Shown piece after piece: positions 4,699-6,603 of a DNA stretch of 37,639 nt. The stretch covers positions 1 through 37,639 of the forward strand of contig JAIBEY010000099.1 of assembly GCA_019459525.1 (NCBI GenBank), read 5' to 3'. The notes beneath the pieces were generated by a model. The model was given only the letters and a program-made list of their open reading frames with translations. It was not told the DNA's origin and made no database searches. Numbering within the stretch: the first letter of the stretch is position 1; each line of letters opens with the position of its first letter. The position numbers were made by a program, and so were the translations under genes. The stretch comes from Prolixibacteraceae bacterium. Its GTDB lineage: Bacteria; Bacteroidota; Bacteroidia; Bacteroidales; Prolixibacteraceae.

Positions 4699-6108
4699 TC
4701 AGTTAATCTCTTTCGCAATTTCTAACGCTTTTTTCAAAGCTGCCAGTTTGTTGTTCACTTCCTGAAGTTCGCTTTCTTCCTGCGAATCGGCAACCACTCC
4801 GGCACCCGCCTGATAGTACAGCGTATTTCCCTTACTCAGAAACGACCGGATCATGATGGCATGATTCAACGAATTATCGAATCCGAGATAACCAATACAT
4901 CCGCCATAATAGCTGCGTCGCTGGTTTTCGTAGGTATCAATCAGTTGCATGGCGCGGTGCTTCGGCGCTCCGGATAATGTTCCAGCCGGAAACGAATCGC
5001 CCAAAACCGTGATCATGTTGGTATTTTCGGGCAATTTACCTGAAACTTCGGACACCAAATGAATAACATGCGAAAAGTATTGAACCTGTCGGTAGCTGTC
5101 AACCCGAACATCGCTGGCATTGCGACTCAAATCGTTGCGGGCCAGATCGACCAGCATCACATGTTCGGCATTTTCTTTGGGATCGGCACACAAACGTTCA
5201 GCCGAACGGCGGTCTTCGTCGTCGTTTCCTGAGCGTTTAAAAGTTCCGGCAATCGGGTTGATGATGGCGCGATCTTTCTTGATACGCAATTCAGCTTCCG
5301 GACTTGATCCAAAGATGCGGTACGTTCCGTAGTCGAAAAAGAACAAATAGGGAGAAGGATTTACCGAGCGCAGCGCCCTGTAAACATTGAATTCGTCGCC
5401 CTTAAACGGTTGTGAGAACTGACGTGAAAGTACAATCTGAAAAACATCTCCGCGGAAACAATGTTCTTTGCCTTTGCTCACCATGTACTTGTACTCTTCG
5501 TTGGTGATGTTCGAAACTTCTTCCCCAACAGTATCAAAATGGGTGGGCGAAAAAGTCAGGTTCCGGAGCAGCGATTCAATTTGTCCGATTTCTTTGGTTT
5601 CGCCGTCCATCAGGTTTTCGATCAGGTAAATCATGTCCTTATGATGGTCGATAGCCACTATGTACTTGTAAAAACAGTACTTTACTTCCGGAACCGAATA
5701 GGCTTCTTTCTTCGCGGCAGTAATCTCAATTTTCTCGAAATATTTCACCGCATCGTAGCTGATGTAGCCGAAAAGTCCGTTGGCCGGGAGGTTTTCGGTT
5801 TCTCCGGATAATTTGAACGACTTAAAAAACGCATCCAACTGCTGATCGACCCGACATTCCGGAGAAACGATTTTGCTCAACTTTTCGCGGCCATTGTATT
5901 CTATCGTGATTTCGCCGCCATCCGCTGTAAAGCAGGCCATTGGCTTGATGCAAATGAACGAATAGGCATTTTCGTGTCCGTGATAATCGGAACTTTCGAG
6001 CAAAATGGAATTCGGGAATAAATCCCTGAATTTCAGGTAAACACTCACCGGGGTCAAGGTGTCGGCAAGTATCTTTTTTACGCTGACTTGTACATTAATT
6101 TCTTTCAT
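4699..6108 (-). CDS. trpE: Anthranilate synthase component I
   Basis: TrpE makes anthranilate from chorismate and ammonia, the committed and feedback-controlled step. The 469-residue protein shows the tryptophan-binding N-terminal segment ILLESSDYHGHENAYSFI and the chorismate-enzyme core: NPSPYLFFFDYG, IFGSSPEAEL, NPIAGTFKRSG, MLVDLARNDLSR and TLSGAPKHRAMQLI near the C terminus. The start at 6108 (MKEINVQVSV) is preferred to 6135, whose extra residues look like untranslated leader. It is the first structural gene of the operon and is preceded by about 500 bases of leader with two attenuator-like units, so its expression probably depends on charged tRNA-Trp. Confidence 0.96.
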   Translation of the reverse strand: MKEINVQVSVKKILADTLTPVSVYLKFRDLFPNSILLESSDYHGHENAYSFICIKPMACFTADGGEITIEYNGREKLSKIVSPECRVDQQLDAFFKSFKLSGETENLPANGLFGYISYDAVKYFEKIEITAAKKEAYSVPEVKYCFYKYIVAIDHHKDMIYLIENLMDGETKEIGQIESLLRNLTFSPTHFDTVGEEVSNITNEEYKYMVSKGKEHCFRGDVFQIVLSRQFSQPFKGDEFNVYRALRSVNPSPYLFFFDYGTYRIFGSSPEAELRIKKDRAIINPIAGTFKRSGNDDEDRRSAERLCADPKENAEHVMLVDLARNDLSRNASDVRVDSYRQVQYFSHVIHLVSEVSGKLPENTNMITVLGDSFPAGTLSGAPKHRAMQLIDTYENQRRSYYGGCIGYLGFDNSLNHAIMIRSFLSKGNTLYYQAGAGVVADSQEESELQEVNNKLAALKKALEIAKEIN

Positions 6109-6140: not shown

Positions 6141-6311
6141 AACCACATAGGCACATAGGTCACATAGTTTTTGTTTTTAAACCTTTTTTTCTATGTGTTC
6201 TATGTGTCTATGTGGTTCATTTTATTTCTATTATTTACGGCTTCATGCACGTCGGCCACATAAATTATCTTCTCTATGTTTTCTATGTGTCTATGTGGTT
6301 CATTTTATTTC
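6141..6311. repeat. CACATAG / CTATGTG repeat block in trp leader
   Basis: A 38-base unit (6191-6228, beginning CTATGTGTTCTATGTG) recurs at 6274-6311 with one mismatch, in the same orientation. A related inverted copy built of AACCACATAGGCACATAG and TCACATAG lies at 6141-6167. The block separates the second attenuator hairpin from trpE. Folding of the inverted copies is possible. It looks like an inserted intergenic repeat that lengthened the leader. Confidence 0.75.
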
Positions 6312-6327: not shown

Positions 6328-6367
6328 AAAAAAAGCGGCTTACCGTGTTCCGATAAGCCGCTTTTTT
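6328..6367 (-). terminator. trp attenuator 2 terminator hairpin
   Basis: On the minus strand an 11-bp perfect stem AAAGCGGCTTA/TAAGCCGCTTT is followed by a run of seven T. It lies 24 bases after the stop of the second leader ORF. A competing pairing exists: TACCGTG inside the end of leader ORF 2 (6402-6408) is perfectly complementary to CACGGTA in this hairpin (6341-6347), as expected of an anti-terminator. The plus strand could also use it as a terminator. Confidence 0.8.
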
Positions 6368-6390
6368 GTTCATTTTTTTGACAATGATAG

Positions 6391-6459
6391 CTACTTCCTT
6401 CCACGGTATTGCGAAAAGTTACTGTGCCACCACCAAATAGTATTCATTGTTATCATCAT
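6391..6459 (-). CDS. trpL: trp leader peptide 2 (three consecutive Trp codons)
   Basis: A 22-codon ORF starting with two ATG codons and ending in TAG. Residues 9-11 are three consecutive TGG codons within NTIWWWH, and the product ends in GRK. Such a Trp-codon run upstream of trpE, followed by an intrinsic terminator, is the classic design of ribosome-mediated attenuation: a ribosome stalling on TGG codons when charged tRNA-Trp is scarce changes RNA folding and allows transcription into trpE. ACAATGA near the ORF start can pair with TCATTGT just after the stop, giving a hairpin around the Trp codons. No strong Shine-Dalgarno site is seen, as is usual in this phylum. Confidence 0.85.
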   Translation of the reverse strand: MMITMNTIWWWHSNFSQYRGRK

Positions 6460-6473
6460 CTTTTGCTTAAAAT

Positions 6474-6505
6474 AAAAAACCTGCTTTCAATCTTTTGGAA
6501 GCAGG
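6474..6505 (-). terminator. trp attenuator 1 terminator hairpin
   Basis: On the minus strand CCTGCTT (6499-6505) pairs with AAGCAGG (6480-6486), followed by six T (6474-6479). It lies 32 bases after the stop of leader ORF 1 and 14 bases before the start of leader ORF 2. Placement and shape match an intrinsic terminator that would act as the first attenuator. Confidence 0.7.
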
Positions 6506-6537
6506 CCTTGTATGGTTAAAAAATACCAATATGGCTA

Positions 6538-6603
6538 TTACTTCCTGTTATTTGCAGAAAGACCCCACCACGGAAGCCATATTGTATTTGTATTTTGAAT
6601 CAT
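6538..6603 (-). CDS. trpL: trp leader peptide 1 (three Trp codons)
   Basis: A 21-codon ORF, ATG at 6603-6601 and TAA at 6540-6538. TGG codons are at positions 9, 12 and 13 (IWLPWWG). It shares the NTIW word at the same position and the terminal RK with leader peptide 2, which argues that the two are duplicates. A long hairpin joins the ORF (AGCCATATT-GTATT, 6575-6588 on plus) to the sequence just after its stop (AATACCAATATGGCT, 6522-6536), including the first Trp codon in the stem and the other two in the loop; six T follow the 3' arm. Confidence 0.82.
   Translation of the reverse strand: MIQNTNTIWLPWWGLSANNRK

Follow-up and report, generated by a model that had tools for sequence, protein, structure and literature searches.

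The DNA upstream of trpE in the window (the whole stretch analysed, 37,639 nt of a Prolixibacteraceae genome) carries two Trp-codon leader peptides, each followed by a terminator (Table 1). We consider it likely, from the sequence and its conservation, that these are two ribosome-mediated Trp attenuators arranged in series behind one promoter, that the first (unit 1) is an old paralogue, and that the RNA core within it has a second, RNA-level role. Two serial Trp attenuators had been proposed in a sequence-only reading of this DNA, and the proposal gains from the conservation, reading frames, terminators and covarying antiterminators of both units; the alignment of relatives' leaders that the reading had suggested reveals TGG runs and terminators conserved in the tandem clade and, in each unit, a predicted antiterminator that covaries. 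Its particulars proved exact on re-reading of the window, namely the coordinates and lengths of the two ORFs, three TGG codons in each, NTIW at residues 6–9, the RK ends, and both strands of the TACCGTG/CACGGTA pairing. The hairpin with a T-run that it placed after each ORF was likewise found in both cases, terminator 1 being missed by a consensus scan and listed by dedicated scans.

Table 1. Features of the tandem leader and of trpE, in window coordinates
Feature	Position	Strand	Details
Putative promoter	6652-6621	-	CTTG 6652-6649, 20-nt spacer, TTTTTTTA 6628-6621
Leader ORF 1	6603-6538	-	21 aa, MIQNTNTIWLPWWGLSANNRK, three TGG
Unit-1 RNA core	6596-6517	-	P1, junction, P2, U-tract; from alignment A1 and model R1
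Core P1	6589-6575 with 6536-6521	-	AAATACAATATGGCT/AGCCATATTGGTATTT
Core junction	6574-6563	-	TCCGTGGTGGGG; (TCCG)TGGTGGGG
Core P2 hairpin	6561-6555 with 6547-6541	-	followed by the U-tract
Unit-1 antiterminator, upstream strand	6545-6533	-	GGAAGTAATAGCC; duplex with 6507-6497
Terminator 1	about 6509-6476, T-rich tail to 6469	-	GGCCTGCTTCC...GAAAGCAGG; 5' arm is the antiterminator partner
Leader ORF 2	6459-6391	-	22 aa, MMITMNTIWWWHSNFSQYRGRK, three TGG
ORF2 Trp codons	6435-6427	-	
Unit-2 antiterminator, upstream strand	6408-6402	-	TACCGTG; partner CACGGTA 6347-6341
Terminator 2	6367-6329	-	from consensus terminator scan and alignment A3
trpE	6135-4699	-	first gene of trpE-G-D-C-F-B

Translation of trpE probably begins at the ATG at 6108, which encodes residue 10 of the listed ORF, and the trpE product carries Pfam PF04715 and PF00425; trpA is absent from the window. 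The source genome measures 5.54 Mb, and its TrpE is ∼79–80% identical to the TrpE of Gaoshiqia and Sunxiuqinia, an identity that puts the organism in Prolixibacteraceae or close by. Two genes are found upstream of the leader, a small one that is MliC-like and one encoding an SprA_N domain. Within the leader, the T-rich tail of terminator 1 is separated from the ATG of ORF2 by 9–14 nt. When a leader unit is defined as an ATG-initiated ORF of 10–35 aa with at least three Trp codons and a terminator just downstream, two units occur within 381 nt here, whereas neither the 2000 dinucleotide shuffles nor the 1462 other window stretches examined contain a single one, and a chance origin of the pair is rejected on these counts. 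The predicted fold of 6640-6310 is also more stable than that of every one of 100 shuffles (z = −4.27; 0/100 as stable).

A CTTG-N20-T...TTT[A/G] box stands 36–40 nt before the core AATATGG in 18/18 same-genus core loci (loci cut by a contig end and L018 and L019 left out of the count), at constant spacing between flanks that vary, and it resembles the known Bacteroidota promoter. The case for this putative promoter rests on its conservation, because a plain scan for the box in the window gives equal-score matches inside unit 1. A sigma-70-like site lies at 6293-6264, downstream of both gates, in a consensus scan that returned five sites vs 4.0 by chance; a further promoter may exist there or inside unit 1.

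The downstream element, unit 2, is by its features an ordinary Bacteroidota Trp leader, kin of Rfam Bacteroid-trp (RF01692). That family is presented, in the accessible parts of the respective papers, as a Trp leader of Bacteroidota (Weinberg et al. 2010, PMC2864571) and as a conserved element ahead of the F. psychrophilum trp operon (PMC6414381). Unit 2 shares with it a Trp-codon ORF, a hairpin and a terminator before trpE, and fits its context (Bacteroidota, upstream of a trp gene, a Trp-codon run with a terminator after it), whereas the RF01692 model holds one unit and the present leader has two in series. The score of unit 2 against RF01692 is 30.8 bits, below the cut-off of 49; no Rfam family reaches cut-off in the window, nor at ten other trpE loci, mostly of Bacteroidales, and 7/8 Flavobacteriaceae loci reach the RF01692 cut-off just upstream of trpE (51.6–80 bits), at the position of their Trp leaders. 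A model (R2) trained on alignment A3, which holds 39 leaders from both groups including unit 2 and five of these seven RF01692 loci, also finds the two RF01692 loci outside A3 (L103, 75.4 bits; L108, 77.2 bits), and matches the window at 6328-6447 with 105.1 bits, unit 2 being among its own 39 sequences.

Terminator 2 is paired in 97.7% of cells across A3, with changes on both sides in 8/10 pairs; one of five measures, further pair types, is unexceptional (52/500 shuffles). In unit 2 the strand that follows the Trp codons, CCGTGA, has its pairing partner, TCACGG, in the terminator loop and 3' arm. Over 109 leaders this pairing has a mean energy of −13.07 kcal/mol in own combinations vs −11.36 kcal/mol when permuted (sd 0.20; 0/20000; kinship not corrected). 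An antiterminator formed with the terminator 5' arm was rejected, as the same 109 leaders give no signal for it (−8.43 vs −8.32; 4856/20000). For the loop/3'-arm pairing, the paired cells (74.3%), the doubly changed cells (23 vs 6.9 in shuffles) and the covariation score are each matched by 0/500 shuffles; further pair types are marginal (26/500), and pairs changed on both sides (5 vs 4.0; 156/500) do not beat the shuffles. The antiterminator spans the top five pairs of terminator 2 and leaves the lower six untouched, so that antitermination may be partial, and its partner strand lies beyond the RF01692 model, which ends in the terminator 5' arm.

Unit 1 is built differently. In the E. coli trp attenuator the leader regions pair as 1:2, 2:3 and 3:4, and the antiterminator uses the 5' arm of the terminator. 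Unit 1 has the same 1:2, 2:3, 3:4 layout and likewise employs the 5' arm of its terminator, as its GGAAG...AGCC strand pairs with GGCCTGCTTCC; it is unlike the E. coli element in that its Trp codons lie inside a conserved multi-branched core and that a second attenuator follows. The predicted antiterminator has a mean energy of −13.2 kcal/mol in own combinations vs −10.4 kcal/mol when swapped (0/20000 permutations; 46 rows, kinship not corrected), and the pairing is kept despite changes, as TTAGGAG/CTCCTAA in L187 and L142 and as GAGAGGCTAAGCC/GGCTTACCTTCTC in L149 and L150. Rfam assigns unit 1 to no family: RF00513 (Trp_leader) scores 24.8 bits over 6471-6576 (cut-off 41), and RF01692 gives no match up to E 10. 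Unit 1 of one relative (L177, 958-1068; g213) scores 38 bits against the trpB motif RF04312 (below its cut-off of 59), the matched part being hairpin plus terminator; the motif is described, in the accessible part of its report, from Firmicutes and Fusobacteria as a riboswitch candidate, perhaps a classic attenuator (PMC11109978).

Both units have an in-frame start, a run of Trp codons, a stop near region 2 and an antiterminator predicted to be mutually exclusive with the terminator. Transcription from the putative promoter at ∼6650-6620 would run through both gates on a single transcript. With Trp-tRNA plentiful, a ribosome at the ORF1 stop would cover GGAAG...AGCC, terminator 1 would form and the RNA would end near 6470; a ribosome stalled on the Trp codons would cover the 5' side of P1, leaving GGAAG...AGCC to pair with the 5' arm of terminator 1 and permitting read-through. 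In unit 2, the distances suggest that a ribosome at the ORF2 stop would cover CCGTG so that terminator 2 forms, whereas stalling on TGGTGGTGG would expose CCGTG, which could then pair with CACGG of the terminator loop and 3' arm and open the top five pairs of terminator 2. As trpE would be reached only with both gates open, basal leak and induction would multiply.

Around its Trp codons unit 1 holds a separately conserved RNA core of ∼80 nt, which the earlier reading had missed while recognizing the attenuator. The core model R1 matches 102/140 genomes of the family, in 15/23 genera (E up to 0.05; some matches weak), one match (G468, L183) having no trpE nearby. At 71/72 core loci trpE follows 203–516 nt downstream on the same strand, and at the exception (L124; core at contig bases 112-192, minus strand) the contig ends before trpE. 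The core as a general genome element was rejected, as it occurs at one place in its own genome (up to three mismatches). It was also rejected as an order-wide element: five of 393 genomes of the order match R1, among them the window, a strong family match and a weak match at a real family core locus, and the remaining two (L116 and L117) look like chance by eye.

In the table of core rows (assembled with a regular expression that required P1, GGTGGG and a Trp run within ∼500 nt; rows are distinct, some near-identical, L155 is counted once, and the diverged or displaced loci L157, L043/L175 and L188–L191 are left out), terminator 1 and an in-frame ATG are both present in 56 rows, terminator 1 alone in none, the ATG alone in one (L121/L008, with ORF1 kept and terminator 1 weakened) and neither in 15. 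The association gives a Fisher p of 1.4e-14, a value that ignores shared descent; few independent events lie behind it, the start-less state amounting to two changes on the TrpE tree. In all 56 rows with terminator 1 the in-frame ATG is accompanied by the Trp codons, and the stop comes no more than 14 codons after the first Trp. The 15 start-less loci keep the core but lack both terminator 1 and an ATG for ORF1, L155 offering an in-frame TTG that is maybe accidental. Four of them make up one group on the tree, g16, and the other eleven, L148 included, a separate clade of Sunxiuqinia/Gaoshiqia type; the trp operon of these relatives would run with one gate. The reverse is seen at the g14 loci L188–L191, where a Trp ORF and a GCCTGCTTC-type terminator remain and the core is gone; unit 2 is also present in L188, unit 1 is partly visible by eye in L190, which matches R2 twice, and in L189 the position of unit 2 falls inside a run of N. 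In L191 (G090) a unit-1-type Trp leader, MNQLITVWFWWLSCFPGKK, with a GCCTGCTTC-type terminator lies directly before trpE; no unit 2 was seen there by eye, and R2 gives one weak match.

The core and the attenuator can therefore be separated in both directions, and the core most likely acts at the RNA level, with a second role that would have outlived the attenuator in two lineages. All 15 start-less sequences share CAATATGGC, TGGTGGG and AGCCATATT, with loops that vary, and a hairpin in the P2 region is predicted in 14/14 distinct start-less sequences, the P2 pairing itself in 12; in L018 and L148 this hairpin is built of other letters, and in L153 and L155 the lowest-energy hairpin differs from the P2 pairing. 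A mere DNA site is disfavoured because P2 varies in length and letters yet mostly stays paired. How the core would act is a matter of guesses: binding of tRNA, protein or a metabolite, or an effect on polymerase at the U-tract. A more ambitious reading, which we put forward tentatively and hold to be somewhat improbable, would make it a cis-acting RNA of a new class, belonging to the trp operon of Prolixibacteraceae and either recognized in trans (by tRNA-Trp, a protein or tryptophan) or acting on polymerase; a Trp leader peptide and terminator would have been added to it or lost from it, such that one segment serves as aptamer-like element, coding sequence and half of an antiterminator.

Three alternatives bear on unit 1 only and are compatible with serial attenuation for the leader as a whole. 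The persistence of the core in two lineages that lack ORF and terminator, its invariant TGGTGGG and P1 blocks beside variable loops, and the recurrent P2-region hairpin would all suit a unit 1 that is primarily a structured RNA, riboswitch-like or binding protein or tRNA, with ORF1 incidental and terminator 1 as its expression platform. We regard this as unlikely, however, as terminator 1 never occurs without the in-frame ATG, Trp codons and near stop (56/56 rows), and at the g14 loci it is the core that is lost, with Trp ORF and terminator retained. Slightly less probable still is that the start-less lineages translate unit 1 from a non-AUG codon, so that the peptide and ribosome stalling alone would explain the core. 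Candidate starts do exist, with AUA 12 nt before the first TGG in 10/10 Sunxiuqinia-type start-less loci (L148 lacks it), AUU at −9 in 3/4 g16 loci, the TTG of L155, and indels in L148 and L156 that bring TGGTGG into frame with an ATG inside P1; but the same indels disrupt the former Trp frame, the 15 loci have no frame, start or stop in common, 9/15 frames from the core ATG have no Trp run and four more use that of leader 2, third codon positions are fixed as much as the others, and in the absence of terminator 1 stalling has no known outlet. Also rejected was a shared reading frame running from the core ATG on into leader 2, which 5/15 start-less loci have, as expected by chance. That the start-less cores are relics being lost is very improbable: loss of ORF and terminator would be the expected first step of decay, but in ten of the eleven members of the larger clade (L148 left out) the core blocks are invariant at 28/28 and 16/18 positions against 10/45 in the 5' flank and 3/13 in the spacer, with leader 2 from its Trp codons invariant at 31/45 and terminator 2 at 30/34, and L148 keeps the core despite a branch of 0.78 changes/site.

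With serial attenuation as the preferred reading, the relation between the two units may be considered. They had been said to look like duplicates, and this stands in the sense of an old, diverged pair, not of a recent duplication, since likeness within a genome is about that between genomes and the antiterminator geometries differ. In the source genome (G000) the local score of unit 1 against unit 2 is 33 vs 19.4 in shuffles, with 2/500 as high; the mean z of unit likeness is ∼3.1 within 14 genomes (two at or below 0), 2.5 over 182 between-genome comparisons and 0.1 for other stretches of the window. The shared NTIW, previously taken as a mark of duplication, does not serve as one, as it is near-fixed in unit 1 and not in unit 2, where relatives have KNIWWW, LTNWWW or NNNWWW. 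R2, the unit-2 model, finds unit 1 of six g213 loci (37–46 bits) and of L190 (35.8 bits), its best wrong-strand match scoring 33.8 bits; unit 1 of L188 (28.7), L152 (28.3), L041 (22.1) and G000 (18.2 bits) is matched weakly. On these comparisons unit 1 probably descends from the Bacteroidota Trp leader by an old duplication and has diverged since, although the likeness may stem from constraints common to such leaders. A local duplication of recent date in this genome, for which the common NTIW and RK and the local score (2/500) might speak, is scarcely credible given the within- and between-genome z values, the clade-wide tandem and the differing antiterminators.

The distribution of leader units was drawn from DNA upstream of trpE at 23 whole-genome loci (including the window), 80 named loci, 40 loci around core matches and 25 further family loci; the last came from 35 genomes (G010, G090 and G286 together with most of the 38 in the family that lack a core match), of which 25 gave trpE, with L192, L200 and L212 holding no upstream DNA. 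Among the 101 distinct trpE loci of the first set (three duplicates dropped), 54 have one leader unit, 29 have two and 18 have none, three of the last (L009, L016 and L080) offering only 348, 277 and 202 nt of upstream DNA. The tandem clade accounts for 27/29 of the two-unit loci. Outside it stand L020, whose tandem is independent, and L112, one ORF of which looks spurious. On a TrpE tree of 69 rows, several of them partial, every one of the 48 core or tandem rows falls into a single clade (ultrafast bootstrap 99, SH-aLRT 94), with L020 grouped as 'single' though tandem and L157 as 'core' though its core has decayed. On this tree the paired leader is an old trait of one Prolixibacteraceae clade. 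Elsewhere in the family one unit-2-type leader was seen by eye at eight loci (L193, L194, L195, L196, L198, L199, L202 and L211), and R2 confirmed 5/5 of those on which it was run; at eight g208 loci no leader was seen by eye, trpE there mostly following the apparent end of trpB. In a phylum sample R2 matches 125/395 genomes (E up to 0.01; many weak), and among the places listed for these 395 genomes no second same-strand match within 1 kb lies outside the tandem clade.

Single Trp leaders of Bacteroidota are already on record (RF01692; PMC2864571, in the part accessible); the earlier reading had known of no serial double attenuator in a Bacteroidetes trp operon. We found no serial Trp leader-peptide attenuator in the literature, as judged mostly from listings with few subscription journals, and older work may exist. 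Signs of leader-peptide attenuation in Flavobacterium and Bacteroides appear in the accessible parts of PMC9723704 and PMC7366714, and the main text of PMC2965389, as far as available, does not contain the words Bacteroidetes or Bacteroides. Two short ORFs also share one leader and act on transcription in Salmonella mgtCBR, where, according to the accessible text, the signals are ATP and proline and, unlike in the metE leader, there are no two terminator sites (PMC3641672); here the same amino acid is read twice, with a terminator for each. In ermB two leader peptides serve one gene (PMC8274638), as drug-driven translational control in the portion of that source available, unlike the present leader. 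Tandem T-boxes on trp operons, which have been argued to act like a digital system (PMC12452182, accessible part), resemble this leader in that trp genes are preceded by elements in series that respond to one kind of signal. T-boxes bind tRNA directly, whereas the present leader would have two leader peptides read by ribosomes. Identity with a T-box (RF00230) was rejected, as none is among the 34 Rfam matches at E up to 10.

Textbook Trp attenuation has one gate, whereas this clade has kept two for the same amino acid with different antiterminator geometries, and the benefit of serial gates (lower leak, steeper response) becomes testable by deleting either of them. The relatives offer natural controls with one gate and the core, two gates with the core, and two gates without it, and a core that outlives its own attenuator suggests that a well-studied pathway contains an RNA signal so far undescribed.

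Several further observations were made at these loci. The independent tandem L020 (G024, another family) has two unit-2-type leaders, MNTNRLNNYWWWQFTYSFYREEGKLS and MNNSNLHIWWWHNSGIKP, each with a terminator and matched by R2 at 78 and 68 bits. In Tangfeifania diversioriginum a nucleotidyltransferase/HepT-like pair (L043:2104-2728; PF01909/PF18765 and PF01934), in composition a toxin-antitoxin module, lies between unit 1, with its core at 1965-2045, and unit 2, so that its transcription would pass gate 1 and not gate 2; the corresponding gap in Mariniphaga L047 holds, by eye, an apparent remnant of such a pair. L083 (MAG-52) has a single Trp leader with two terminator-like hairpins behind it and then a run of N. 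At the same-genus loci L007 and L013 terminator 2 ends ∼6 nt before the trpE reference point. In the window, the interval from terminator 2 to trpE (6141-6300) contains three copies, in both orientations, of the repeat AACCACATAGRCACATAGA, which occurs at 27 places in the genome with at most one mismatch, against 0 for a reversed-pattern control.
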